Source: Thermococcus zilligii AN1 (GTDB lineage Archaea; Methanobacteriota_B; Thermococci; Thermococcales; Thermococcaceae). Taken from it: DNA of 64,000 nucleotides. Of the stretch, positions 23,062 to 46,256 are shown one piece after another. The number at the start of each line of letters is the position of its first letter. Position 1 is the first letter of the stretch. Both the position numbers and the translations under genes were made by a program. The notes under the pieces were generated by a model that was given only the letters and a program-made list of their open reading frames with translations, was not told where the DNA came from and searched no databases. The stretch is from contig NZ_AJLF01000001.1 in the NCBI RefSeq assembly GCF_000258515.1, forward strand, positions 682,001-746,000, given 5' to 3'.

Positions 23062-24654
23062 CTAAAAAAGGCCTTGAGAGGTCTTTTCTGCCCGGGAGCC
23101 GCTGGCCCGCCGGTGCAAACGAAAAAACGGGAAAGGCAAAGGAAGAAACGCACCCTTGAGGGCCTTAAGCACCCTCCCGTACTCGAAACCGCTCAGGTAG
23201 ACCAGCTCTCTGACCCAGTCGCTGGAACCCTTGCCCCTCCATACCCCGGTCAGCTTGTACCTCCCGAGCCAGACCTCCCCGAGGACGACCGTGAGGGTGT
23301 AGAGCGTGTCCCTCAGCGCTTCCCAGCTCCCCGGGTATGCCTTCCCCGGTTCGACCCTCGCCTCGAGCTTGAAGGGGACCAGGCCGCTCCCCTTCATGGC
23401 GTCCATCTGTGAGTAGGCCCTGTCGTCCGCCGTCAGAACCACGACGTTCGCTTTCTTCTCCTCGGCGAAGGCCTTGTAGTCGAGGGCTATCTTCGTGTCG
23501 CCGTGGAAGGTCTCCCTCGAGCCCGCCCTCTCGGCGCCAAGTTTCCTCATGCTCTCAAGCTCGACCTTCGCCAGCTCCGCGAGTCTGGCCCTCGGCGTCG
23601 GCTGGTTGGAGAATTCGCCGAGTTCCTGGGAGTAGGGGAGCTTGTGGTTTGCTATTTGGCCGACCTCAAGGGCCACCTCGTCCGAGTAAACGAAGTCAAC
23701 TATCAGGTTCCCCCTCTCCTTCAGCCCCTCCTCGGCGAGAACCCTCGAGAAGGCCCTCTGCATGAGCGCGTTGGTGTCGAAGCCTATGTAGACTGGCCTC
23801 CCGCTGGCCTTGAGGGTTTTGATGAGGGAGACCAGCCCGCCCCAGTTCTCGAAGGGGACCATCCCCCCGGCTATGAGGGCCTGCCTGAAGACCCCGAAGT
23901 CGCCGTGGAGCTCATCGTTGAGGTTCACGAGGGCCGGCACCCTGTAGAGCGCCTCTTTATCGAGGCGGACGGTGCCGAGGATTACCTCGTTCCTCCCGGA
24001 GTCCGGGGGCTCGGTTTGGTCTGCCATGGAGGGGGCCGCCCTGGTCTTTACGGTCAGGGATGTCTCCCCGTCAAGGTAGAGGGAATCGAGGAGCGCCATC
24101 AGGTGCTCTCTCCTCACCGGGAGCTTTTCCGGCGACCCCTTTTTTCTCCCGCCGAAGCTGGCAGTCCCCTTCTTCCCGGTCAGCTCCTCCGTGAAGAAGA
24201 GCCTCTGCTTTACCATCGGGACCTCAAAGAGTAGCTTCCCAATGTACCTCGTCCAGTCCTCGAGGTGGAGGTAGGTAACCTCGTCCGCCCCGCCGGCCAG
24301 GGCCGCCCCGAGGAGGAGGGCACTCATGAACTTCCTGCCCGGAGTTATGTCCACGACCACCTCGTAGCCGAGTGCCTTGAGGGACTTGATTGTGCTGAGG
24401 ACCTTGTCCCTGAACTCGACCGGGTCTTCCTCCGTGAAGAGCTTCTCTTCGTCGGCTATGGCCCTGATCTCCACGCCGTACGCTTTCCCGAGCTTTTCCA
24501 AAAGCCGCTCAGTCTTCTCGAGCTGTTCTTTAACCTTTTCGTTCCAGAGCAGGTGCACTTCATCTGGAACCCAGCCCCTTACCTCCATGAGGTACCAGAG
24601 GGGGTTGAAAACGGCCTCAGGCGATGTCCCAACGGTGGTCACGTAGGCCCTCAT
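23062..24654 (-). CDS. CARF-PIN fusion protein, candidate cOA-activated ribonuclease
   Basis: A 530-aa two-domain protein. Residues 1-150 form a CARF-like domain (YVTTVGTSPEAVF at the start, VVDITPGRKFMSALLLGAA at 100-118). Residues about 285-420 form a PIN nuclease with a full acidic set: D293 (IGFDTNALM), E326 (YSDEVALE), D386 (GDTKIALDY) and D410/D411 (VLTADDRAYS). CARF domains bind cyclic oligoadenylates from Cas10 and PIN domains cut RNA, so a signal-activated RNase is the natural reading; activity is inferred. ATG 24654 has GGGTGAT upstream. It is divergent from the TM-CARF operon, sharing one promoter region. Confidence 0.85.
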   Translation of the reverse strand: MRAYVTTVGTSPEAVFNPLWYLMEVRGWVPDEVHLLWNEKVKEQLEKTERLLEKLGKAYGVEIRAIADEEKLFTEEDPVEFRDKVLSTIKSLKALGYEVVVDITPGRKFMSALLLGAALAGGADEVTYLHLEDWTRYIGKLLFEVPMVKQRLFFTEELTGKKGTASFGGRKKGSPEKLPVRREHLMALLDSLYLDGETSLTVKTRAAPSMADQTEPPDSGRNEVILGTVRLDKEALYRVPALVNLNDELHGDFGVFRQALIAGGMVPFENWGGLVSLIKTLKASGRPVYIGFDTNALMQRAFSRVLAEEGLKERGNLIVDFVYSDEVALEVGQIANHKLPYSQELGEFSNQPTPRARLAELAKVELESMRKLGAERAGSRETFHGDTKIALDYKAFAEEKKANVVVLTADDRAYSQMDAMKGSGLVPFKLEARVEPGKAYPGSWEALRDTLYTLTVVLGEVWLGRYKLTGVWRGKGSSDWVRELVYLSGFEYGRVLKALKGAFLPLPFPFFRLHRRASGSRAEKTSQGLF

Positions 24655-27458: not shown

Positions 27459-28295
27459 ATGAGGACTCAGACCATAAAGCCGAGGATAAGGGAGATACTC
27501 TCGAGGGAGCTTCCTCCAGAGCTGGTCGAACTCCTCCCAAAACACTGGGTCAGGATAGGCGACGTCATAATCCTGCCCCTCAGGAGGGAGCTTGAGCCCT
27601 ACAGGGGGAGGATAGCCGAAGTTTACGCCGGAGTCCTCGGGGCTAAGGCTGTCCTCAGGAAGGGCCACATCCACGGGGAGACGAGAAACCCCGACTACGA
27701 GCTCCTCTACGGGACGGACACCATAACGGTTCACGTGGAAAACGGCGTCAAGTACAAGCTCGACGTGGCTAAAATAATGTTCTCCCCCGCAAACGTCAAG
27801 GAGCGCGTGAGGATGGGCAAAGTTGCAAGACCTGGCGAGCTGGTGGTGGACATGTTCGCCGGGATCGGCCACCTAAGCCTGCCGATGGCAGTCCACGGGA
27901 AGGCGAGGGTAATAGCGATAGAAAAGAGCCCCTACACATTCCGCTTTCTGGTTGAGAACATCGAGCTCAATAATGTCCAGGACAGGGTGACGGCCTACAA
28001 CATTGACAACCGCGACTTTCCGGGGGAAAACATTGCCGACAGGATCCTCATGGGCTACGTATCAACGACACACGAGTTCATACCGAAAGCCCTGAGCATA
28101 GCCAGGGACGGGGCGATAATCCACTACCACAACACCGTCCCGGAGAGGCTCATGCCCGAGGAGCCCTTCGCAACCTTCCTAAGGATAGCTAAGGAGCACG
28201 GTTATGAGGCGGAAAAGCTCAACGAGCTGGTGATAAAGCGCTACGCACCCGGCGTCTGGCACGTGGTGGTCGATGTCAGGGTTTACAGGAGGTAG
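27459..28295 (+). CDS. taw2: tRNA(Phe) wybutosine biosynthesis enzyme Taw2 (TYW2)
   Basis: A 278-aa class I SAM-dependent enzyme that moves the 3-amino-3-carboxypropyl group of SAM onto the modified guanosine 37 of tRNA-Phe in the archaeal wyosine pathway. The SAM site is DMFAGIGHLSLPMA near residue 130, followed by IAIEKSPYTFRFL; the catalytic-region TYW2/TRM5 marks GETRNPDYELLYG and IIHYHNTVPE are present. The length equals that known for Pyrococcus TYW2. A longer open frame begins at 27288, but a TATA (GGCTTTTTAAATCC, 27427-27440) lies 20-30 bases before ATG 27459, indicating a leaderless transcript. Housekeeping gene, apparently an old boundary inside the island. Confidence 0.92.
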   Translation: MRTQTIKPRIREILSRELPPELVELLPKHWVRIGDVIILPLRRELEPYRGRIAEVYAGVLGAKAVLRKGHIHGETRNPDYELLYGTDTITVHVENGVKYKLDVAKIMFSPANVKERVRMGKVARPGELVVDMFAGIGHLSLPMAVHGKARVIAIEKSPYTFRFLVENIELNNVQDRVTAYNIDNRDFPGENIADRILMGYVSTTHEFIPKALSIARDGAIIHYHNTVPERLMPEEPFATFLRIAKEHGYEAEKLNELVIKRYAPGVWHVVVDVRVYRR

Positions 28296-28340
28296 GGAGA
28301 GCAAAGCTTATAAAACCCCTTCCCATACCAGAGCCGGGAT

Positions 28341-28418
28341 GGGCCGGTAGCTCAGCCTGGTTAGAGCGCGGGGCTTTTAACCCCGTGGCCGCGGGTTCGA
28401 ATCCCGTCCGGCCCGCCA
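28341..28418 (+). tRNA. tRNA-Lys (TTT)
   Basis: Complete cloverleaf: acceptor stem GGGCCGG pairs with CCGGCCC (28408-28414), discriminator G, and CCA encoded at 28416-28418. The anticodon loop CTTTTAA gives anticodon TTT (Lys). The T-loop is GGTTCGAATCC. No intron. tRNA 3' ends are frequent integration targets in Thermococcales, and the csm block starts just downstream. Confidence 0.97.
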
Positions 28419-28432
28419 GGGTCTTCTTCACT

Positions 28433-28519
28433 TCTGCTGGAGCAAAGTTCCCGTGGGGTAATTCTCCCCATCTATCGCGCCGTGTGTACTCAAACGGGTT
28501 TGGAGCCTTCTCCAGCAGA
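28433..28519 (+). ncRNA. Candidate structured RNA element downstream of tRNA-Lys
   Basis: TCTGCTGGAG (28433-28442) pairs perfectly with CTCCAGCAGA (28510-28519); directly inside, CAAA pairs with TTTG and CCCGT with ACGGG, and the apical part holds a GGGG/CCCC hairpin (28455-28469). That is at least 23 base pairs in 87 bases. It starts 15 bases after the tRNA CCA, so it would be released by tRNA 3' processing or act on its own. The stem-internal-loop-stem form recalls archaeal H/ACA guides, but I see no convincing ACA box. The rest of the 28419-28659 gap holds the cas6 promoter (ATTTATAACC near 28590). Confidence 0.35.
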
Positions 28520-28659
28520 TGCCGGGTTCGTTCTATGCTCAATTCGGGGTTCCGCTGGTAAATTAGACCACTCTATGGCACCAAGCGAAACATTTATAAC
28601 CTAAAATTGGAACAGATTTTATTGGGCCCTTCCCAATAAACACCTTGAGTTGATGGGTA

Positions 28660-29373
28660 ATGAGGCTTAAAATCTCCTTGGAGCCCCTGAACAGGAACTT
28701 TGAGAGACCCAATAAGCACGCCGTTCAGGGGTTTATCTATAACATGCTTAAGGACTCGGAGTACGGGGAAAGGCACGATGAACCAAAGTTTAAGTTCTTC
28801 ACGTTCTCCGACTTCTTTACCGACCCCGCCGGGAGGCCGACGCTCCTGATATCTTCACCTGAAAGAGGCTTCATTAATACCCTCCACAGCACTATCCGGG
28901 AGAGGGAAACCGTCCACATCGGCCAGCAGGAGCTGAGGGTTGTCGAGCTCAAGAAGTTCAGGCTCCCCCTGAGAAGGGCCTTCCAGACGGGCTCCCCGAT
29001 AGTCCTTTATAGAAACGCCGAGGAAAACGAGTACTTCAAGCTCCACCAGCACAGGGACCTGCGCTTCTTCCTCGAGAGGCTCAAGGAGAACGCGGAGAAG
29101 AAGTACGGCGCGTTTTACGGGGACGAGTTCACCCTTGAGGGGCCCATCTTCGACAGGCTTATCCCGAAGCTCAGGAACAACGGGAAACTGGACGTTTACG
29201 TAAAGGTCGTCAAGAACGGCGTCCCCTTCCCGGTCATAGGCTCCAACTGGGAGCTCCTTGAGAAGGAGCGCATAAAGCCGGAGGAAAGGCGCTTCTACCG
29301 CTTTATAATGGACGCCGGCCTCGGGGAGAAGAACAGCCTCGGCTTTGGGTTTTTGAACCCTGTCAGGAGGTGA
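28660..29373 (+). CDS. cas6: Cas6 pre-crRNA endoribonuclease (copy b)
   Basis: A 237-aa Cas6. The G-rich loop is GLGEKNSLGFGF near the C-terminus; Y27, H39 and K45 occupy the expected catalytic positions by comparison with P. furiosus Cas6. It is clearly a paralogue of the 7256 gene (KFKFFTFSD, LISSP..GFI and FRFIMDAG-type segments are shared) but diverged, fitting a different repeat substrate. It heads the csm operon: its TGA is embedded in AGGAGGTGA, which is the csm1 ribosome site. TATA candidates are ATTTATAACC near 28590 and GATTTTATTGG near 28615. It probably serves array 4. Confidence 0.95.
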   Translation: MRLKISLEPLNRNFERPNKHAVQGFIYNMLKDSEYGERHDEPKFKFFTFSDFFTDPAGRPTLLISSPERGFINTLHSTIRERETVHIGQQELRVVELKKFRLPLRRAFQTGSPIVLYRNAEENEYFKLHQHRDLRFFLERLKENAEKKYGAFYGDEFTLEGPIFDRLIPKLRNNGKLDVYVKVVKNGVPFPVIGSNWELLEKERIKPEERRFYRFIMDAGLGEKNSLGFGFLNPVRR

Positions 29374-29377
29374 AAAA

Positions 29378-31729
29378 TTGGAGTTGAGGGAGTTGGTTAG
29401 CCTCGGCGGGCTCCTCCACGACATTGGGAAGCCCGTCCAGAGGGCAGGCTTTTATTCGGGTGATCATCCGAAACAGGGGGCGGAGTTCCTCAGGGAACTC
29501 GCGAGGAGTACCGGCAGGGAGGAATACAAACTTCTGGCCCTGTTCTCAGAGTTCCACCACCAGGGCTATATGAACGAAACGGAGATGAGAAAAAAGATCA
29601 GCGAAGTCCGCCCTGAACGCTTTGGGCTCGGTGAAGAGGACGTCCTCAGGGCGCTGTGGATCGTCTATGAGGCGGACAACCTTTCCTCCGCCGAGAGGGA
29701 GGAAGGAAAGCCGGAGCAGATAAGGCCGCTCTACTCAATATTCAACAGGGAAAAGGGCTATCCACCGGTTACCCTCGAATTCGGCAGGGAGTTGCCGGTT
29801 CCGGGTGATATCGAGAGCTTAGAAAAATCGAACTACGAGCGCGTGGTGAACGGCCTCAGGGAAGACCTCAAAAAGGTCGAACTCAGAGTTGACAGGATCC
29901 TCCCGGTTCTTGAGAAGCACCTCACCTTTGTAAGCTCCGCAACAGCTAAGGGAAACGTCATCTCGCTCTACGACCACATGAGGATGACCTCTGCCATCGC
30001 ACTGGCGATGCTGAACGCCGGCTGCACCGCTGAAGACGTGGCAACTGGAAGGTGCAAAAGGGAGAAGAGGTTCCTCCTGATCGAGGGCGACTTGTCAGGT
30101 ATACAGGACTTCATTTATGAAGTCAGTGGAAAGGGAACCCTCAAGTACCTCCGCGCGAGGAGCGCCTACCTCGAGCTTATCTCATGGGACATCATCTTAG
30201 AAGTCCTCAACAGGCTTGGCCTGACGAGGGCCAACGTCATCTTCAACGCCGGCGGCCACTTCCTCATACTCGCCCAGAACACGGAAGGTGCCAGAAAGGA
30301 GCTCGAAAGCATCAGGAAGCACGTTGTGGAGTGGCTCTACCGCGAATTTGACGGGAAGCTTTACCTTGCTTTAGACTGGGAGGCAGTGGGCGGTGAAGAG
30401 CTCGGACGGAAGGGCGACAAGAACCTCTTCGCCGAGGCGAGGAAGAGGCTGAAGGAAAAGCTGAACATCAGGAAGCTGAGGCGCTTCTGTGAAGTTGAAG
30501 ACCCCTTCAGGGGGCCAGAAGCAGGTGAAAGGCTCGAAGAGTGCGCCGTCTGCGGAAAGGAAGTGCCCGAGAGCGAACTTGAGCCCTTCAGGCTGGGCGA
30601 CGACCCAAGTGTGAAGGTCTGCAGGACGTGCAACGAACTCGTGGAACTTGGCAAAGAACTGCCCAAGGTTAAGGGGTTTATACTCGACAGAAAGGCCCGC
30701 GAGGGCGAGGGAATAACGAAAGGCCCCTTCAGGCATTTCATACCCTACGTCGGGGAACAGATGCCGATGGGGGAAATCCTTCTCCTTAAGAACACCCTCG
30801 ACGTCCCCGGGAACCTTCCGGGGGGCATTGAGTTCGTGCCCTACCTTGTGGCTGACTACTTTAAGCCGAGTGCTGAGGATAAGTACGCGGTTGCAGACTT
30901 CGAGGAACTGGCGGAAAACTCCACAGGAACGAGGAGGCTCGGCGTCCTCAAGGGCGACGTGGACAACCTCGGGCTGTTCTTCATGGACATGGACAGCCCC
31001 TCAAAGCTCGCCACAGCCTCACGCTTCATGGACTACTTCTTCAAGGCCTACCTGAACGAGGTTATCAAGGGCAAGTTTGAATATTTGATGGGAGAAATCC
31101 CTTCGCTCGGGGACTGGCCAAAAGAACCGGACGTCGTGGTTGTTTACGCCGGCGGGGACGACCTCTTCATAGTTGGCGCCTGGGACCAGGTCTTTGAGCT
31201 GGCCTTTAGGATTAGGGAAGCCTTCAGGGCCTACACGGGAAACGGGAGAAGCCTATCGGCCGCCCTGGGTTATTTCCACCCCAAGACCCCAATCTACAGG
31301 ATGGCGGATGCCGTCTCCGGGAGGCTTGAGAAGGCAAAAAGAGAGGGGAGAGACAAGGACAGGGTCTTCGTGATAGAGAGGACAGCCCCCAGAGGATTCC
31401 CAGTCGCTTACCGCTGGAAGCAGTACGAGGAACTCTGGAAGGCCTACAAACCGAGGGTCTACGCCGGAAACGGCAGACTGGCTAAGGAACTTGAGTCAAA
31501 GAAAAGCCTGCTCTGGCGCGTTCTTGAGCTCAGGGAGCTCTACGTTAGAGACCCGAAGGGCGTGAAGTGGGCCTATCTGATAGCCTACCTCCTCGGCAGG
31601 CACAAGCTTTCCAGTCTCTTCCCCGAGCTCGTCGGGATAGATGCCGGGGCCGCCCTGAAGGGTGAGCCCCAGCCGATTTACTGGGTTGATGGTGTATTGA
31701 AGGTTGTCTTGATGGCCGTTAGGGGGTGA
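29378..31729 (+). CDS. csm1: Csm1/Cas10, type III-A large subunit
   Basis: A 783-aa Cas10 of type III-A. The HD nuclease motif is intact (LLHDIGKPVQ, H14-D15), as is the palm YAGGDDLFIV (GGDD 592-595), so both ssDNA cleavage and cyclic oligoadenylate synthesis are expected. Zinc-binding cysteines CAVC near 390 and CRTC near 416 lie between. The start is TTG at 29378, supported by AGGAGGTGA five bases upstream; an ATG start is not available nearby. It contrasts with the III-B Cmr2 of this island, which lacks the HD motif. Confidence 0.95.
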   Translation: MELRELVSLGGLLHDIGKPVQRAGFYSGDHPKQGAEFLRELARSTGREEYKLLALFSEFHHQGYMNETEMRKKISEVRPERFGLGEEDVLRALWIVYEADNLSSAEREEGKPEQIRPLYSIFNREKGYPPVTLEFGRELPVPGDIESLEKSNYERVVNGLREDLKKVELRVDRILPVLEKHLTFVSSATAKGNVISLYDHMRMTSAIALAMLNAGCTAEDVATGRCKREKRFLLIEGDLSGIQDFIYEVSGKGTLKYLRARSAYLELISWDIILEVLNRLGLTRANVIFNAGGHFLILAQNTEGARKELESIRKHVVEWLYREFDGKLYLALDWEAVGGEELGRKGDKNLFAEARKRLKEKLNIRKLRRFCEVEDPFRGPEAGERLEECAVCGKEVPESELEPFRLGDDPSVKVCRTCNELVELGKELPKVKGFILDRKAREGEGITKGPFRHFIPYVGEQMPMGEILLLKNTLDVPGNLPGGIEFVPYLVADYFKPSAEDKYAVADFEELAENSTGTRRLGVLKGDVDNLGLFFMDMDSPSKLATASRFMDYFFKAYLNEVIKGKFEYLMGEIPSLGDWPKEPDVVVVYAGGDDLFIVGAWDQVFELAFRIREAFRAYTGNGRSLSAALGYFHPKTPIYRMADAVSGRLEKAKREGRDKDRVFVIERTAPRGFPVAYRWKQYEELWKAYKPRVYAGNGRLAKELESKKSLLWRVLELRELYVRDPKGVKWAYLIAYLLGRHKLSSLFPELVGIDAGAALKGEPQPIYWVDGVLKVVLMAVRG

Positions 31730-31733
31730 TTCG

Positions 31734-32303
31734 ATGAGTGATAGATACTCAAGCCGCGGTATGGAGAAACCCCAAGGGGAGGCCCAGAGAAGCGACGTCA
31801 GTAAACTCTTCGGGGACAACCCCGATGTGATAGGAATACGCGAAGCCTTCGAAAAGAACAGGATATCAAGGAACGACATTGAGCCATACTTCAAAAAGAT
31901 AGCGGAGGAGCTGGAAAAGAGCAGGAGAGATGGGACTTTTCCCGGCTGGAGTCCGGAGAAGAGGCTTGCAAACGCCATTGTGGTGGCGGCTTATCTCAGG
32001 GCCCAGAACCTCAAAACCAACCAGGTAAGGAAAGTCCTTGAGATGGCGCGGACAATCGAGCTGAAGCTGAAGAAGGGTGACACGGACATAAAGGACGACG
32101 TTGTGAAGACCCGCTACCTGCTGGCGTATACCGTTGGTAGGGCCACGGGAGGGGCAAAGTATGCCCTCGATGCGTTCCACAGAATCCTCGACCCAATGCT
32201 GGCCCTTCTAACGGAAAACACCGATGTTAGTCGCTTTGAGGAGGTTTATGACTTCCTCCAGGCTGTTGTTGCGTACCACAGGTTCTTTGGAGGTGGTGAA
32301 TGA
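31734..32303 (+). CDS. csm2: Csm2, type III-A small subunit (Cas11)
   Basis: A 189-aa mostly helical protein in the csm2 position between csm1 and csm3. The C-terminal half fits the family (VKTRYLLAYTVGRATGGAKYA, DAFHRILDPML, FLQAVVAYHRFFGG). ATG 31734 follows GGGGGTGAT, which overlaps the csm1 stop. Its stop overlaps the csm3 start. The first 25 residues are polar and probably flexible. Confidence 0.92.
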   Translation: MSDRYSSRGMEKPQGEAQRSDVSKLFGDNPDVIGIREAFEKNRISRNDIEPYFKKIAEELEKSRRDGTFPGWSPEKRLANAIVVAAYLRAQNLKTNQVRKVLEMARTIELKLKKGDTDIKDDVVKTRYLLAYTVGRATGGAKYALDAFHRILDPMLALLTENTDVSRFEEVYDFLQAVVAYHRFFGGGE

Positions 32304-33208
32304 TGGACAGGCGCTTTTACGGGAAAGTTGTTATCAGGGGCAGAATTAAGGCCCTCACCGGCCTCCACATAGGTTCCCAGAGGGATGTCTCGGAGATAGG
32401 CGGCATTGACAACCCCGTCATAAAGGACCCCCACACGGGCCTGCCCTACATCCCGGGCTCTTCCCTGAAGGGAAAGCTGAGGAGCCTGTTCGAGGTGTTC
32501 ACGAACTCCAAGCTCAATGAGTGGAAGGAAAAACATCCCACCCTGAAGAACTATTCCCCGGGCAGTTGCAGGGAAGAAGGTAAGGAAAACTGTGGGAAGT
32601 TCTTTAACAGGAGAATCCACAACGGCTGGATCCACGTCTGCCCCAGCTACTCTTCGGCTATCAACTGCCCTGTCTGCCGCCTCTTCGGCGCGAGCGGGAA
32701 TGATAGCAACTTCCCCTCAAGGCTCATCGTCAGGGACGCCTTCCTCACGAAGGAGTGGGAGGACAAATGGAGGGCCGGAGAGGACATAACCGAGGCAAAA
32801 ATCGAAGTTGGCATTGACAGGGTGACCTCTCAGGCAAATCCAAGGACCAACGAGCGCGTCGTCGCTGGGGCCGAGTTCGACTTCGAGATAATCTACAACG
32901 TTGAAGAGCTAAGCCAGTGGGAGGACGACATAAAGAACCTCCTCACAGCGATGGCCCTCCTTGAGGACAGCTACCTCGGCGGTTCCGGTTCCAGGGGCTA
33001 CGGTAAGGTGAAGTTCGTCTTCAATACCTTCGAGTTCAGAAGTGCTGACTACTACCGCACCGGCAATGAAGGGGAGAAGAGGGCCATACCCGTTGGGGAG
33101 AAGCCGGTCGTTGACATCCTCAAGGACTTTGATAAGCTGTTCTCGGGGGTGAAAGGGAAGCTGGAGGGGATGCAATGCCCCTACTCAAGTTCAAAGCAGT
33201 TAAGCTGA
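32303..33208 (+). CDS. csm3: Csm3, type III-A backbone subunit and target-RNA nuclease
   Basis: A 301-aa Csm3 (Cas7 group). The catalytic aspartate in IGGIDNPVIKDP is D36, intact, so target RNA cutting is expected. RAMP marks: GLHIGSQRDVSEIGG, PYIPGSSLKGKLRSLFE and GGSGSRGYGKVKF. Cysteines in CPSYSSAINCPVCRLFG may bind zinc. ATG 32303 is preferred over ATG 32300 for spacing from GGAGGTG (32289-32295); both overlap the csm2 stop. Confidence 0.95.
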   Translation: MDRRFYGKVVIRGRIKALTGLHIGSQRDVSEIGGIDNPVIKDPHTGLPYIPGSSLKGKLRSLFEVFTNSKLNEWKEKHPTLKNYSPGSCREEGKENCGKFFNRRIHNGWIHVCPSYSSAINCPVCRLFGASGNDSNFPSRLIVRDAFLTKEWEDKWRAGEDITEAKIEVGIDRVTSQANPRTNERVVAGAEFDFEIIYNVEELSQWEDDIKNLLTAMALLEDSYLGGSGSRGYGKVKFVFNTFEFRSADYYRTGNEGEKRAIPVGEKPVVDILKDFDKLFSGVKGKLEGMQCPYSSSKQLS

Positions 33209-34071
33209 TTCCCAGAGGGCCGGTAAGGGGGCTCCCCAGGGCCGACACGATATTCGGCGCTATCGGTAATGCCATAGCCACGCTCTTTGGCGCCAGGGCA
33301 GTTGACGAGCTGGTTGAGGGGTTCGAGAGGGGTGCAAGGATCAGCTCGGCCTTCCCCTTTGAGGGGGACACCTATTACTTTCCCAGGCCACTGAGCGCCG
33401 GTGCCCTCGACTTCGGAGAGCTTTTGAAAGACCTTCCCAGGGAGGAACGCTACGCCCTGGGGAAGGCCATGAAAAAAGTGGCGTACATCGACCTTGAGAA
33501 CTTCGAGAAAGCCCTTAGGCTTGAGCCCTTTGACGTCCCCTCTGCCTTGCCCTTCAGGAGGGTGGACGTCCCCAGGGTGGCCCTCGACAGGGTAACCAGC
33601 GACTCCAGCCTCTATTTCTGGGACGAGGTGAGGTTCAAAGAGAACTCCGGCCTCTATTTCCTCTACTCCGGGGACGAGGGTATTTTCAAAGACTACGTCC
33701 TCCCGGCGCTCCGCTATCTCTCCGACACCGGAATCGGCGGGAAGGCGACCTGGGGCTTTGGCCTCTTCGACTTTCAGGTCGGCGAGCTTGGGATAAACGC
33801 CCCTGAAAGCCCTTACAGTGCAACGCTTTCAAACGCCCTTCCGACGAAAACTCCCGTGCTCTGGAACGTCCTGAAGAAGGGTGGCTGGAGCTTTGGAAGA
33901 AGAAAGCCTAAGGTGAACTTCATCGCCGAGGGCTCCATCGTGGCGGACGACCCGGGGAGGATAATCCCCCTCGACCTCGGACTGCAGTGTAAGGTTCACG
34001 TCTACGGCTTAGTCTTCCCTGTCCCGGCCAGGGTTCCGGAAGAGGCTCTGGGAGGGGTGAACTGCCCATGA
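33175..34071 (+). CDS. csm4: Csm4, type III-A RAMP subunit (Cas5 group)
   Basis: A 298-aa Csm4, which binds the crRNA 5' tag and contacts Csm1. Characteristic are LPRADTIFGAIGNAIATLFG near residue 20, ISSAFPFEGDTYYFPRP and GIGGKATWGFGLF near 180. ATG 33175 is inside the csm3 end (34-base overlap) and follows GGAGGGGATGC. Its stop overlaps the csm5 ATG. Confidence 0.93.
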   Translation: MPLLKFKAVKLIPRGPVRGLPRADTIFGAIGNAIATLFGARAVDELVEGFERGARISSAFPFEGDTYYFPRPLSAGALDFGELLKDLPREERYALGKAMKKVAYIDLENFEKALRLEPFDVPSALPFRRVDVPRVALDRVTSDSSLYFWDEVRFKENSGLYFLYSGDEGIFKDYVLPALRYLSDTGIGGKATWGFGLFDFQVGELGINAPESPYSATLSNALPTKTPVLWNVLKKGGWSFGRRKPKVNFIAEGSIVADDPGRIIPLDLGLQCKVHVYGLVFPVPARVPEEALGGVNCP

Positions 34072-35264
34072 GGCTGGAGGTTCTCTCCCCGCTCCACATA
34101 GGGAACGGGAACAGGCTAACTCCGGTTGACATCTACCCCAGCAAGGACAGGGTCTACGTCCTCGACGTGGAAAAGCTTTTCAACGACCTCCAAAAGCTGG
34201 GCGTTGATATTGAGGAAATCCTCACGCTCCTGAAAAGCCCTCCCGGGGAGCACTACGTGTGGAAAGGCTACATCGAGGAGTACAACCTTAACCCATCCGA
34301 CTACGCCCTCTACTCCCTCCCGGTGTTTGGTGAGCCCGGAAAAACCAGCATGCAGATAAACGAGTTCATAAAGTCCAGCGGGAGGCCCTACATCCCCGGC
34401 TCCTCCATCAAGGGGGCGATAAGGACGGCCGTGTTCTATAAAGCGCTTAAGGAGTGCGGCGATTCTGGAACGGCGATGAACCTCGTTGCGAACTTCTCGT
34501 CAAACCTCGCGAGAGAAATAGGCTACAGTGAAAGTCTGATTGACTATTACGTTGATTACCTCAACAGGGAAACAGCTGAAAAGAGAAAGTTCGACGAGAG
34601 AAGGGCAGACGACCTGCTTGAGGCCATAGTTTTCGGGATGGAGAAGGGTGGATACCCAGAAGTGCGATACGAGCCCAAGCGCGACCCGATGAGGGCGTTA
34701 ATCATAAGGGACAGCCCGGCCATAGGCAGGAAGCACCTTGCCGTTTACCGCGTCGAAGCCGTGGGGAACCCTTCACCGATACCAGTGTGGGTGGAGGCGC
34801 TCCAGCCGGGGACGGAGATCGAAGTTGAACTCAGGTTTGACGAAGAGCTCCTCAGGGTGAACTCCAGCTACTTCAACGGCCTCCTCTGGGAGTGCCTGAA
34901 GGACAGGGGAAAGCCCTGGGAAGTTTTTGAGGACTTCGTCTGGGAGGCCGTCAAGGAGTTTTACAACTCCATAGTAGAGCACGAGCTCAGGAGCCTTTCA
35001 AAGTTCGGAAGCCGGAGGGAGTCAGTCCGCTCGTTCTACGGAAGCATTAAGGGGAAAGAAAAAATCCTGAGGCTCGGCTGGGGGAGCGGGTGGATAAGCA
35101 CCACAATCGGCCTCCTTCTGGTCGAAAGGGGCGGGAAGTGGGAGCAGGTCAGGAGAAAACTCGGGCTGGGCAGGAACCCGTCGGGGAGGGGTTTCTCGAA
35201 GGACTTCCCGAAGACGAGGCGTTTGGCCGAGGGCAAACCAATGGGCTGGGTGGTGCTGAAATGA
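34068..35264 (+). CDS. csm5: Csm5, type III-A RAMP subunit
   Basis: A 398-aa Csm5, the Cas7-group subunit at the crRNA 3' end, also implicated in crRNA maturation. It begins MRLEVLSPLHIGNGNRLTP and carries RPYIPGSSIKGAIRTAVFYK near 110 and a late glycine-rich LGWGSGWISTTIG. ATG 34068 overlaps the csm4 stop (ATGA). The csx1 gene overlaps its own stop in the same way. Confidence 0.93.
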   Translation: MRLEVLSPLHIGNGNRLTPVDIYPSKDRVYVLDVEKLFNDLQKLGVDIEEILTLLKSPPGEHYVWKGYIEEYNLNPSDYALYSLPVFGEPGKTSMQINEFIKSSGRPYIPGSSIKGAIRTAVFYKALKECGDSGTAMNLVANFSSNLAREIGYSESLIDYYVDYLNRETAEKRKFDERRADDLLEAIVFGMEKGGYPEVRYEPKRDPMRALIIRDSPAIGRKHLAVYRVEAVGNPSPIPVWVEALQPGTEIEVELRFDEELLRVNSSYFNGLLWECLKDRGKPWEVFEDFVWEAVKEFYNSIVEHELRSLSKFGSRRESVRSFYGSIKGKEKILRLGWGSGWISTTIGLLLVERGGKWEQVRRKLGLGRNPSGRGFSKDFPKTRRLAEGKPMGWVVLK

Positions 35265-36553
35265 AGCTCCTCATAGCCTCGTGGGGGGACTTTGAGAACT
35301 GGAGGGAGGTCAAATACCGCTTTGGGGAGGAAGTCAGCGTTGGCCCCTCGACCCTCCCCATCCTCCAGAAGGCCATAAAACCCGACTGGACGGTAATAGT
35401 CCTCTCTGAGACCCTCGGGAAGGACTTTTCCTCGCTGGAAGCCCTGAGGGAAGAGTTGAGGAGCAGGGTCCAGGAGTTCCTTGAAAGGATAGGCGCCGGC
35501 AGGGAGGTGGACGTCCTCATAGTGCCGGGCATAGGGAAGTTCGGGCACGGAACCTTCGAGGGGAGCGCGATGGACGTCTATTACTATGCGCTTCACGGCC
35601 TCTCCCAGGTGATTCCCCTCGAGGGGGAGCTCGAGGTGCACTTCGATATAACCCACGGGCTGAACTACATAACCTTCCTCGTCCACAGGGCCCTCAGGGA
35701 ACTCCTGGGGGTAAGGACGCTCCTCAGCGAGACCCGCTTCAGGGCCTACAACTCGGACCCCTTCGTCCCAAAGCTCAGCTCCGAACTCGGTATAAACGTC
35801 ATCGAGGACATCCAAGTAGAGCCCCACCCCTTAACCGGGAGGCTCCCAGGCCTTGATGGATACATAATCCCTTACCTCACCGAGAAGAAGGTTCTGGGGG
35901 AACTCAAGAGGGAGCTGGATACCTTCAAGCTGATAAGGTCAGAGAAGAGGAAGCTTGAGGCCTGGGTGGGGTCGGTCGTCTTAGGCTTACCCCTCCTCTT
36001 CGCCGAGGACTTCCCCGAGGTGGAGCCAATAGAGGAGGCTGTTGACGAGCTGATGGATACATGGGAAGGCCACGTCGAGGTCTCCGAGAAATCCGTCAGG
36101 AGGAAACTGGCCTTCGGGGAGGGCTTTGGTGCCCTGGTGAAGCTGGCCTTTCAGGTTAAAGCCCTGGGGAAGTTCAAGCTTACCCTCCCCCCGAGCATCG
36201 ACGACCTCTACAGAATTTCCCAGGAAGTCTTCAGGGGTGCTAACAGGGAGAGGGCAAACGTCGAGCTGGGAAAGATAGAGGACAGGGCAATAGCCTACGC
36301 TTCATCGGGCGTTTTCCCGGACTGGATGCCCCTGAGGGACTTTTTGGGCTTTGAGAGAGCCAACAAAGAGATATCGCCCCGCAACTTCCTGGCGCACGCC
36401 GGCCTTGAGGCCAACGTGACCGAGGTTAAGATGGAACGCTGGGAAGCTGGGGACGTCAGGAGGGAGGCGAGAAAGCACACCTTCCTCAGGTATTCTCAGG
36501 AAGCCAGGAGGCGCGTCGAGGAGATGACGGCAAATGCCCTCGGGGGTGTCTGA
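35261..36553 (+). CDS. csx1: Csx1: CARF-HEPN ribonuclease (copy b)
   Basis: A 430-aa Csx1. The CARF part starts LLIASWGDFENWREVKYRF and has EVHFDITHGLNYITFLVHRAL near 130; the HEPN motif is RNFLAH (R374, H379). ATG 35261 overlaps the csm5 stop (ATGA), so the longer open frame beginning at 35090 is rejected. It is translationally coupled to the csm operon, as copy a is to the cmr operon, giving each complex its own Csx1. Confidence 0.93.
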   Translation: MKLLIASWGDFENWREVKYRFGEEVSVGPSTLPILQKAIKPDWTVIVLSETLGKDFSSLEALREELRSRVQEFLERIGAGREVDVLIVPGIGKFGHGTFEGSAMDVYYYALHGLSQVIPLEGELEVHFDITHGLNYITFLVHRALRELLGVRTLLSETRFRAYNSDPFVPKLSSELGINVIEDIQVEPHPLTGRLPGLDGYIIPYLTEKKVLGELKRELDTFKLIRSEKRKLEAWVGSVVLGLPLLFAEDFPEVEPIEEAVDELMDTWEGHVEVSEKSVRRKLAFGEGFGALVKLAFQVKALGKFKLTLPPSIDDLYRISQEVFRGANRERANVELGKIEDRAIAYASSGVFPDWMPLRDFLGFERANKEISPRNFLAHAGLEANVTEVKMERWEAGDVRREARKHTFLRYSQEARRRVEEMTANALGGV

Positions 36554-37210
36554 ATGCTCGACGCTTACCTGAAGAACGGTGAGCTCTTTCTAAGGGACAG
36601 GGGAATAACGGAGATCACGGAGGAGACGATAAGGCAGACCTACCTGTGGCCGGTCGAGGAAATGAGCGGGCTGAGCTTGGAGAGCGAGGAGGAGGCGGTT
36701 GCGATACTCAGAAAGTTCGGTTTCGAGCTGTCGGGCAAGACCTCCGAGTTGCTCCCCTCCTTCACGAAGACCTCCAGGGGAACCTGCTCCGTCTGCGGCA
36801 AGGCCGGGCGAGTGGTGAGCAACAAGGCCTTCATCTTTCCCCTCGAGAGGAAGATAGACTCCATAGTGAACGACGACAACAGGCTGGCCTTCTGCCAGGG
36901 GCACGCCTTCACGCTCTATTCAGCGATGGCCAACCTGTTCACGGTCCCGACCGGGGAGAAAACGCTCAAGTTCTTCTTTGCCGGGCCGGAGAAGGATTTA
37001 AGGAGGTTTCTGCTGGCCTTCAAGTCCTTCTGGAGGGAGAGGTTCGAGGTGGCTGTCAAGGAAAGCAACGGGAAGAAGAAATACTCCCTCAGGGTGAACC
37101 TGACGCTCTCGAAAAACCACCCGGACGAGGCCTTCTTCGCAGTCCTCCACGAGTCCGTCAAATTAAGGAGGGCCTTGAGGTTCCGAAGCTTGAGGGGCTT
37201 GAGGTCATGA
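36554..37210 (+). pseudogene. Truncated type I Cas8/Cst1-like gene (5' part)
   Basis: A 218-aa frame starting directly at the csx1 stop (TGAATG). Residues 77-135 hold a zinc-finger-like CSVCGKAGRVVSN and AFCQGHAFTLYSAMANLF, which resemble the CXXC-type Cst1/Cas8 large subunit of type I-B systems. The frame looks genuine up to about LHESV (37157), then turns into arginine-rich text KLRRALRFRSLRGLRS and stops. At that point the neighbouring frame begins to read sensible Cas7-like protein, so I infer a deletion that joined cas8 out of frame to cas7. It may still be translated as a truncated protein. Confidence 0.6.
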
Positions 37211-37638
37211 AAGTTGAAGACGCCACCGGAAAGGAGGCCACCCTCTCCGTTTTGCCGTATGAGGAGAGGGTAAGGAGGCTCAGGGCAATCCTGGAGGCGA
37301 TAATGCAGTACCACGGCGGAGCGAAGCTGAGCAACTTCTTCACGAAGGTCTACCCGGAGGTCATGGTGGTGGCACTGCTGAAGCGCAAGATACCTGTTAT
37401 AGGGGATGCACTCAGGGTCAAGCAGGGCTACGTTGACGGGAAGCTCGTCCTCGACGTGGAGAGGCTGAAGGAAACCGTGGAGACCTTCGGCGACAGCATA
37501 GAAAAGCTCTACATCGGCCTCTTCGAGAGCCGCTTCGCCAACGTGGAGGAGCTGAGGGAAGCTTTCAGGGGCGTGGAGAACGTCGAGGTACTGGGCATGA
37601 AGGAGCTCAGGGAGAAGATAGCGGGGCTCGGTGAGTGA
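37207..37638 (+). pseudogene. Truncated type I Cas7/Cst2-like gene (3' part)
   Basis: A 143-aa frame from ATG 37207, overlapping the previous stop (ATGA). It reads RLRAILEAIMQYHGGAKLSN near residue 25 and ends with MKELREKIAGLGE; it resembles only the C-terminal part of Cas7/Cst2 (DevR) backbone proteins, which are normally about 300 aa or more. The same frame continues sensibly upstream of the ATG (GLEVPKLEGLEV), i.e. the real cas7 start has been lost. RNA-binding N-terminal parts are missing, so a working Cascade backbone is unlikely. Confidence 0.6.
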
Positions 37639-38323
37639 CGTGCTCGGGCTCGTGGTGGAGGTAAAGCCTATACAGGCCCACTTCAGGATCCCATACAACT
37701 CCCTCCTCATGGACAGCTACCCGTTCCCACCGAGGACAACGGCGATAGGCATGCTCGCCGGGGCGATGGGGTTACCGGAGGAGGGCTTCAGGGGACTGCT
37801 CAACGAGCTTCGCTATGGGGTCATCGTCGAGGAGGCCGGCTCAAGGGTGGAAGAGACCGCGGTAATCTTCAAGAAGGAGGACTCCCCGATATACCCCATA
37901 ACCAAAGTCCTGTACCACAAGCCCCACTACAGGCTCTTCTTCGCCGGGGAGGATAGGCTAATCGAGAGGGCCTACGAGGCCCTGCTGGACCCGGTTTTCA
38001 CGCCCTACCTCGGCGACAGCGAGAGCCTCCTTTATCCGGCAAGGAAGGACTACGTCAGGCTTGTGGGGGTGGAGGAAGGCAGAGAAACGACGCTCAGGAG
38101 CGTCATTCCGGAGGAGGCCTACTCATCCGGCGCGAGGTTCTTCGTCCTCAGGGGGAGCAACCTGACACCGAGGGACTACAGGATGCCCGTCGGCTTCACT
38201 TACAGCGGAAAGAAGAGGAGGGCGGTCTTCAGGAGGGTGGTGGCCTTTGCGGGTGGCTACGTCGAGCTGGCGAGCCCCGTTGAAGTTTTCCTCTTCGACG
38301 GCGAGCCGGTCTTCACCTTTTGA
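37631..38323 (+). CDS. cas5: Cas5, type I (Cst-like) subunit
   Basis: A 230-aa Cas5 of the type I-B/Cst kind. It starts at GTG 37631, overlapping the truncated cas7 stop (GTG 37640 is an alternative). Typical are PIQAHFRIPYNSLLMDSYPFPPRTT (read in parts: IQAHFRIPYNS, then YPFPPRTTAIGMLAGAMG) and the C-terminal EVFLFDGEPVF. The gene appears full length, but the partners it needs (cas8, cas7) are truncated and cas3 is absent from the window, so it is likely an orphan survivor of a lost type I system. Confidence 0.88.
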   Translation: MSDVLGLVVEVKPIQAHFRIPYNSLLMDSYPFPPRTTAIGMLAGAMGLPEEGFRGLLNELRYGVIVEEAGSRVEETAVIFKKEDSPIYPITKVLYHKPHYRLFFAGEDRLIERAYEALLDPVFTPYLGDSESLLYPARKDYVRLVGVEEGRETTLRSVIPEEAYSSGARFFVLRGSNLTPRDYRMPVGFTYSGKKRRAVFRRVVAFAGGYVELASPVEVFLFDGEPVFTF

Positions 38324-38798
38324 GTAGCACCGGCCTTTCGGTTTTTCAGGTTTTCGGCTTCTTCTTTTTAGAAAAAGGGGGCCAACGTCCGGATCCCAGA
38401 GCATGGCCGGGGGAGCCCTTTAAAGGGGCAGAGAACCCCTCAGGCGGTCGTTCAGGGCATGCGTGAGGAACCCATCGAAAGGTTTTATGGACGTGAAATA
38501 GAACTGCCATCCGGGGGAGAGGAAGGCCTTAAATCCAGAGAGAACGTTAGGGCTGGGAGCCCGAAGGGTCAAGAAAGGTGGGTAAAACATTAAAGCAAAT
38601 TTTAACCTGATACCACCGAAAGTTTTTTACAGGCGGCCCTTTGATTTTCCAGTTTTCTGTCAGTGGCCAGGGGATTTCTCTGCACCGCCAGCAAAGGCTT
38701 CGGAGGAGGTTTTATTTTTTGCGCTGGATTTATAAATGCGATGCGTTGCCACGGGTTTCCATGATAAAGCTTAAATAGGAGTTTTGACATCCCTTATT
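38324..38798. other. Gap between cas5 and array 4
   Basis: About 475 bases. A 44-codon frame (ATG 38460 to TAA 38594, MREEPIERFYGREIELPSGG ...) has plausible codons but no clear ribosome site or family and may be a relic, for example of lost cas3/cas4; I cannot show this. From about 38595 the sequence becomes T-rich and AT-rich and is the leader of array 4. Confidence 0.4.
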
Positions 38799-38825
38799 TT
38801 CGGGAAAGGTGGAAATTTCCCGAAG
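38600..38825 (+). promoter_or_regulatory. Leader and promoter of CRISPR array 4
   Basis: AT-rich leader with TATA-like GCTTAAATAGG (38769-38779), about 50 bases before the first repeat. Immediately before the repeat is a perfect 9-bp hairpin: TTCGGGAAA (38799-38807), 8-base loop, TTTCCCGAA (38816-38824). This leader is unrelated to the blocks behind arrays 1-3. Confidence 0.75.
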
Positions 38826-40154
38826 GTTTCCGTAGGACAGGATTGTGTGGAAAGGCGGAGTAAGTGGTGTTGACGCCAGCCCCACGCACTGTGAGTTTCC
38901 GTAGGACAGAATTGTGTGGAAAGCTATTCCTGGGTATATTGCATTGACGTAGTCCCTTGAGTTGTGTTTCCGTAGGACAGAATTGTGTGGAAAGATCCTT
39001 GCCCACACATTATATAGAACATCAATGAAATCCCGTTTCCGTAGGACAGAATTGTGTGGAAAGGCCAACCGGAGCGCGGCCTCTTCCGCGGCCTCTTCCG
39101 CGGTGTTTCCGTAGGACAGGATTGTGTGGAAACACAATCATAGACTCTAAATCATACCCAAGAACACATGTGTTTCCGTAGAACAGGGTTGTGTGGAAAC
39201 ATCCCAAAGGAGTCACTGGGCACGAACCGTACAGGGGTTTTGTTTCCGTAGAACAGGGTTGTGTGGAAACGTCCAAACCGGTTCAAGAACGACTCTGTTC
39301 CATTTGGTTTCCGTAGAACAGGGTTGTGTGGAAACAACGATTGGCGGATAAGGACAACCTTGACCTCCTTATCCGGTTTCCGTAGGACAGGATTGTGTGG
39401 AAACCATATAAATCCACATCGCAAACTTCTCCAACTGCTTCTTGTGTTTCCGTAGGACAGGGTTGTGTGGAAACGCCTTACTCACCTTCATTGGGTCACC
39501 CCCAAGAAATGCTGGGTTTCCGTAGAACAGGATTGTGTGGAAACATGAATGGTTTGGGGAGTTACAGGAGCGGATAAGGAAAAGTTTCCGTAGAACAGGA
39601 TTGTGTGGAAACGTGGCATACGGGAGATACAACTTTATCCTCCCATTCTCCACGTTTCCGTAGGACAGGATTGTGTGGAAACCCACATCCTTGACTTGCT
39701 TGTCCGTCCTGACGACCCGTGTTTCCGTAGAACAGGATTGTGTGGAAATATAACAACCTTGTCAAAAATATAAGTGTCATCATCTAGTTTCCGTAGAACA
39801 GGGTTGTGTGGAAACACATTACCCCTAAAGACGCTAATTCGCTCTTTTTCACCGTTTCCGTAGAACAGGATTGTGTGGAAACTTGGTGTATTTGTTGGGG
39901 TGTTTGTGGGTGTTTTTGTGGGTGTTTCCGTAGAACAGGGTTGTGTGGAAACCCCTGCACCGCTGCAAGAAGGAGAAGTGGGATCTGCTTCGTTTCCGTA
40001 GAACAGGGTTGTGTGGAAAGAGAGCCTCTTCGACAACCCTTCTGAACTCCTCATCCGTAAGTTTCCGTAGAACAGGATTGTGCGGAAACCGCTCCCAGAA
40101 GATCAAAAACTTCCTCTCTTCCGGGGGTTCCCGCAGAACGGTTTTGGTGGGGAC
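38826..40154 (+). CRISPR. CRISPR array 4 (19 repeats plus one decayed repeat)
   Basis: Nineteen 29-bp repeats from 38826 to 40089 and a decayed one at 40127-40154 (GTTCCCGCAGAACGG...). Spacers are 36-42 bp. The repeat begins GTTTCCGTAG and ends TTGTGTGGAAAC or -AAAG, of the family common in Thermococcales. The leader is on the left, so transcription is on the plus strand, in line with the csm operon. The first four repeats have GGACAG..ATTG and end AAAG; most later ones have AGAACAGG and end AAAC. The decayed copies are at the right, as expected for the trailer end. Confidence 0.98.
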
Positions 40155-46149: not shown

Positions 46150-46256
46150 TGGTGCCGGGGCGGGGCTTTGAACCCCGGACCTCTCGGTTTCTCAGGCTCC
46201 CCGAAGGGGAGCGGCCCTATGAGCCGAGCGCTCTGACCAGGCTGAGCTACCCCGGC
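46150..46256 (-). tRNA. Elongator tRNA-Met (CAT) with intron
   Basis: On the minus strand the acceptor stem GCCGGGG (from 46256) pairs with CCCCGGC, discriminator A, CCA encoded at 46150-46152. The anticodon stem CTCGG/CCGAG encloses CTCATA...A, giving anticodon CAT. An intron of about 29 bases (46189-46217, centred on a CTCCCC-TTCG-GGGGAG hairpin) follows position 37, the canonical archaeal site cut by the splicing endonuclease. Introns in tRNA-Met and tRNA-Trp are usual in Thermococcales. Confidence 0.95.

Follow-up and report, generated by a model that had tools for sequence, protein, structure and literature searches.

A decayed integrase fragment as the probable origin of a strongly folding stretch beside tRNA-Lys in Thermococcus zilligii AN1

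The 87-nt stretch that follows the tRNA-Lys gene of Thermococcus zilligii AN1 is most probably the decayed scar of int(N), the N-terminal fragment of an integrase gene, with a fortuitous fold, and not an RNA gene; we put the probability of this reading at about 0.8. The window analyzed here is a 64,000-nt stretch of contig NZ_AJLF01000001.1 (positions 682,001 to 746,000), belonging to a genome of 1.76 Mb which is referred to as G000. We infer a history of integration and loss and a fold devoid of function. An old mobile element would have integrated into tRNA-Lys and, as its attachment site lay within its own integrase gene, integration would have left behind int(N), in antisense orientation, at the 3′ end of the tRNA. 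Later losses would have removed the bulk of the element and of its int(N), leaving about 42 nt of int(N) (28419-28460) fused to some 60 nt of distal DNA. The fold would be a by-product, one arm consisting of leftover integrase codons and the other being complementary to it by chance. The firmer part of this verdict is that the first 42 nt derive from an integrase; the absence of an RNA function is suggested by one homologue and by absence elsewhere in the searched genomes. The features discussed are collected in Table 1.

Table 1. Features of the tRNA-Lys region, in coordinates of the window.
Feature	Position	Strand	Evidence
tRNA-Lys (anticodon TTT), putative attachment-site gene	28341..28418	+	ARAGORN; Rfam RF00005, 72.5 bits
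Antisense open frame of 88 aa, spanning the tRNA and the int(N) remnant	28276..28542	-	ORF reading
Probable remains of int(N) (N-terminal part of an archaeal suicidal integrase gene), as antisense codons, adjoining the tRNA 3′ end	28419..28460	-	In-register similarity to 7 fossils
87-nt foldable stretch singled out by the original prediction	28433..28519	+	-38.1 kcal/mol, z -4.57
Left arm of the 10-bp outer stem, within the int(N) remnant	28433..28442	+	Fold, register match, inverted-repeat count
Hairpin A of the predicted three-way junction	28453..28471	+	Fold prediction
Hairpin B of the predicted three-way junction	28477..28499	+	Fold prediction
Right arm of the outer stem; G020 counterpart just 5′ of two CRISPR repeats	28510..28519	+	
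Distal part, matched in G020 only among 83 flanks, no int(N) similarity detected	28461..28519	.	Sequence comparison

The gene content of the window fits its assignment to the Thermococcales. A Taw2 gene (NCBIfam NF047823, over the cut-off) is located upstream of the tRNA-Lys region, and the element is followed downstream by a cas6, csm1-csm5 operon and then CRISPR repeats. Comparison covered the tRNA-Lys(TTT) 3′ flanks of 83 of the 94 family genomes, the 11 genomes with no usable tRNA-Lys(TTT) match being omitted (G003, G036, G039, G047, G053, G054, G062, G082, G088, G090, and G091). In G051, G056, G085, G060, G007, G009, and G011 the antisense strand of the same flank encodes or once encoded a small protein, the frames of these fossils extending into the tRNA shadow and some of them bearing stops or frame shifts. 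G010, whose flank is cut off by the contig end, was grouped with them by sequence, and likewise the truncated G046. Altogether, int(N) or a remnant of it is found at 11 of the 83 flanks, namely in the eight reference fossils, the truncated G046, G000, and one further genome, G020.

With seven fossils as reference and the eighth (G010) set aside, the first 42 nt after the CCA are similar to them in register both in G000 (z = 7.0) and in G020 (z = 7.9), none of 20,000 letter shuffles doing as well in either case. When the 75 non-reference flanks were ranked, G020 scored 8.0, the G046 fossil 6.3, and G000 5.7, with the next flank at 0.6, which sets these three apart from the other 72. The 75 real flanks have a mean of -3.4 (sd 3.2), placing G000 at +2.8 sd and G020 at +3.5 sd, and our confidence in the scar reading was reduced somewhat because this comparison is less extreme than the one with shuffles. 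Concerning nhmmer, the matches are in register but weak (E-values of 0.37, for the G000 remnant, and 2.4), and it is position together with register that points to the int(N) likeness. Past 28460 the similarity drops to shuffle level (28461-28540 in G000, P = 0.90; P = 0.61 in G020), and for this reason the sequence is called a remnant and not an int(N) gene; the N-terminal start and the full int(N) length are absent from it. Since the first 42 nt are int(N)-like, the left arm, together with the inner helix's 5′ strand, would on this reading consist of old integrase codons. The original prediction had offered the remains of an integrated element as one of three possible identities of the stretch, and it is this one that agrees with the position of 28419-28460, in register and antisense, with int(N) fossils at the same tRNA.

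The 88-aa antisense frame has no NCBIfam match, and its sequence gives no sign of a present-day gene. A translated match in G000 (G000:C1:710342-710464, minus strand, query positions 28-68 of 68) is mostly tRNA shadow. Beyond the tRNA, the frame probably represents gene remains and is more than a tRNA shadow. The earlier remark that this DNA is easily mis-annotated as a protein was apt; its description as an extension of the shadow falls short of the gene remains that appear to lie past the tRNA.

An intact relative is present in the family. Contig G044:C4, with a length of 3,370 bases, codes for a 398-aa integrase relative, whose N-terminal part has a 52% identity with the int(N) of G051 and which contains the archaeal phage integrase domain PF16795 (E-value = 7e-57). 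In the six genomes checked, int(N) pieces of the G044:C4 kind overlap tRNA-Glu, and G046 and G056 have an int(N) at tRNA-Glu and also figure among the tRNA-Lys fossils. Likeness to a frame in G030 suggests that the G044:C4 gene holds the tRNA-Glu site, no whole tRNA having been found in the gene. The gene of this suicidal-type integrase seems to contain a tRNA-Glu shadow, and the 3370-base contig (locus L083) is possibly a free plasmid. Searches of plasmid and phage collections with the int(N) protein gave no relative at an E-value of 0.01. In suicidal integrases the attachment site lies within the gene, which is split on integration, and PF16795 is given for the pTN3-like, pT26-2-like, and SSV families (excerpt of PMC8371274). 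The words “tRNA Lys” do not occur in an excerpt of a further paper (PMC6972569).

The remnant is like the int(N) of the SSV-type, pTN3-like, and pT26-2-like suicidal tyrosine integrases in being antisense at a tRNA 3′ end with its frame running into the tRNA, in resembling better-preserved int(N) at the same tRNA and in having an intact relative with PF16795. It differs from them in that G000 keeps only about 42 nt, the start region being lost, and in that G000 yielded no int(C) by a search with the C-terminal part of the G044:C4 integrase, run without a positive control, and no second attachment site, a further copy of the tRNA-Lys 3′ end having been sought within the window. A 30-nt inverted tRNA match at 46222-46251 was rejected as an attachment site, as it belongs to an apparent intron-containing tRNA. 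By eye, this tRNA occupies approximately 46150-46256 of the minus strand and is probably a tRNA-Met; it was reported neither by ARAGORN nor by Rfam at the gathering threshold. Large antisense frames at tRNA-Lys, suggestive of a whole integrase, were also seen in G067 and G069; the latter was discarded as a whole integrase, as it continues into a 359-aa frame in which no int-like sequence was recognized by eye.

Concerning the fold, the original prediction of a highly structured 87-nt element was accurate in several respects. The tRNA ends at 28418 and the element starts 15 bases after it, at 28433; the outer stem (28433-28442/28510-28519) is perfect over its 10 bp; and the folding energy of the stretch is -38.1 kcal/mol (z = -4.57), a value that none of 200 shuffles matched. 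Its architecture had been described as one nested stack with an apical hairpin, in place of which the predicted shape is a three-way junction, where the closing stem, lengthened by two pairs, carries two hairpins and an inner helix is formed by 28447-28451/28502-28506. Chance formation had been called unlikely, which is true in part only. Specifically, GC-adjusted stability as extreme was reached by five of the 12,784 87-nt stretches sampled every 10 bases on both strands, and -38.1 kcal/mol outright by 95 of them. Perfect 10-bp inverted repeats with a gap of 3-70 nt, on the other hand, occur 6 times in the window, while 100 shuffles average 5.8 (sd 3.0), i.e., the outer stem by itself occurs at chance frequency. 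Among the 81 tRNA-Lys flanks of testable length (the other two of the 83 are too short), the G000 flank ranks third by best z. The fold is exceptional, not singular, and the rarity figures flatter it because the boundaries of the element were picked after the fold had been seen.

The only strong BLAST match of 28419-28600 over the 94 family genomes was G000 itself, the second best having an E-value of 0.007. The G020 copy was missed by this flank-only search and emerged when the tRNA was included in the query, the match then reaching 28502; the 83 tRNA-Lys flanks were therefore inspected individually. Among them the whole stretch is common to G000 and G020 only, with a local score of 80 for G020, the next best scores (30-38) coming from int(N) flanks and unrelated flanks alike. 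In G020 the match of a sequence-only model extends to model position 94. A gapped DNA pattern had no match over a collection of genome contigs, which may omit the G000 genome and those near it.

Both G000 and G020 have a Taw2-like gene before the locus and, by eye, padR, ABC-transporter, and glyA frames after it. Two CRISPR repeats come after the stretch in G020 and have CCCCGAAG before them, and the G000 array at 38826 is preceded by TTTCCCGAAG, which is much like it. These approximately 8 shared bases before the repeat, together with the gene order, suggest that in G020 (L003/L138) a deletion with one end close to the right arm removed the cas6-csm operon, which lies after tRNA-Lys and before the array (28520-38826 of the window in G000), and brought two repeats up against the tRNA flank. 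The right arm of G020 may for this reason be non-homologous, which lowers the weight of the hand-made pairing described below and of G020 as evidence. We also considered whether the distal part derives from CRISPR; no array repeat was reported there, and this origin is unsupported. Two further observations concern the defence genes of the window. After the csm operon, type I-B pieces are located at 36554-38323, comprising a 218-aa protein with part of Cas8b only, a 135-aa match to the C-terminal part of Cas7 and a 230-aa Cas5, and they look like a degraded cascade. A 530-aa CARF-PIN protein (PADLOC, E-value = 8e-203) is encoded at 23062-24654 on the minus strand and is likely a type III signalling effector.

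The G020 copy, the only homologue found, has no stable structure. It folds no better than shuffles (z = +0.29), and a longer cut gave a z of 0.0 with the outer stem absent. A structure model scored 13.0 bits on it (E-value = 0.4), no better than on an unrelated place in the same G020 locus (13.9 bits), versus 32.0 bits (E-value = 3e-9) with the sequence-only model, a gap that is indicative and not strictly comparable, as weighting and alignment mode are not the same in the two models. Over the 94 genomes, under strict filters, the structure model reported G000 and one place at an E-value of 0.28, and G020 was not reported. In the sequence-based alignment of G000 and G020, 22 of 31 pairs are kept against a neutral expectation of 21.3 (P = 0.45), and the SCI is 0.29 versus a null of 0.38. 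Compensatory changes among homologues had been proposed as the check on the structure; with one homologue and this alignment they amount to 2 double changes (P = 0.25) and do not bear it out. When the right arm of G020 was shifted by hand in favour of pairing, 25 of the 31 pairs were retained (P = 0.07), with 4 double changes (nominal P = 0.009), an SCI of 0.57 (P = 0.06) and an alifold P of 0.01. This is the main result opposing the reading as a decayed int(N) with a chance fold, and it was not credited because the alignment was built for the structure and the null had no such freedom. Cut exactly at the arm ends, the G020 arms can form 7 pairs, two of them G-U. The best partner for the left-arm position within 120 nt reaches at most 7 of 10 Watson-Crick pairs in the eight reference fossils (the G010 flank having only 78 nt) and in G020, versus 10 in G000; with G-U allowed, the G020 partner reaches 9, at a site within a CRISPR repeat. 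Judging from one homologue, a conserved RNA structure is not supported.

These data bear on several other explanations. A lineage-specific structured RNA, co-transcribed with tRNA-Lys, freed by RNase Z and acting as a guide or regulator, would account for the strong fold (z = -4.57) and for the 4 double changes of the hand-fitted alignment, but we consider it very unlikely, as on the sole homologue the structure model stays below the sequence-only one and no convincing second copy occurs across the 94 genomes. The guide RNA of the original prediction fares no better in its motifs: neither a C box (RTGATGA) nor a D box (CTGA), ACA or UGA is present on the plus strand of 28419-28545, and none of the 7 Rfam matches in 28300-28700, with E-values up to 10, falls on the plus strand of the element. 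One of the Rfam families, TCL6_1, spans the element on the other strand with 14.5 bits versus a gathering score of 60. With archaeal H/ACA guide RNAs the element shares, by eye, a stem with internal junctions; it differs from them in lacking ACA in 28419-28545 and an Rfam match, and its predicted fold has no sign of a kink-turn by eye. An archaeal precedent for a tRNA-linked sRNA is Tko-sR44 of T. kodakarensis, which the element resembles in lying directly downstream of a tRNA gene and from which it differs in having no C or D box, no family match and no support for a conserved structure (excerpt of PMC4247193).

A cis element in the tRNA-Lys precursor, i.e., a 3′ trailer structure or a terminator that aids processing, is very unlikely in our view. 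Its position 15 nt after the tRNA would suit such a role, and 17 of the 83 tRNA-Lys flanks have an exact hairpin with AAACTT arms in their first 60 nt, so hairpins there may matter generally; yet these hairpins differ in sequence (arms of 8-11 bp, loops of 3-8 nt) and are missing in G000 and G020. The tRNA-processing element of the original prediction is further opposed by the restriction of the stretch to G020 among the other flanks of the 83, and by the lack of a stable fold in that copy, which folds like its shuffles. Against the terminator reading we also counted that archaeal termination is not known to depend on a hairpin. The AAACTT-type hairpin (flanks L011, L012, and L024, for example) appears to be a dispersed palindrome. 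The pattern AAACTTTNGC..GCNAAAGTTT was found in 39 of 61 genus genomes, at 1 to 8 places each, and the reversed control in none. Alternatively, the stretch may be a quasi-palindrome, in which a weak inverted repeat between int(N) and downstream DNA was made perfect by template switching in this lineage, again with no function. The 7 pairs (two G-U) of the G020 arms against the perfect 10 of G000 would fit such a correction, but the stem is absent from the minimum-energy fold of G020 with flanks, the G020 right arm may be non-homologous, and two sequences cannot reveal a mechanism; we regard it as highly improbable, and it is a variant of the preferred view as regards the origin of the fold. 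The boldest proposal, that a dying integrase fragment became a new structured RNA, released with tRNA-Lys just upstream of the cas6-csm operon in one lineage, could hold at very long odds at best.

The probable int(N) scar carries a warning for annotation: next to a tRNA, a sequence that folds strongly when examined singly may consist of codons left over from a mobile element. Recognizing the stretch as a probable scar reduces the risk that its antisense frame is taken for a protein, or its sense strand for an RNA gene. Across the family, scars of int(N) next to tRNA-Lys(TTT) were seen in 11 of the 83 genomes read, which helps in the interpretation of past integrations.
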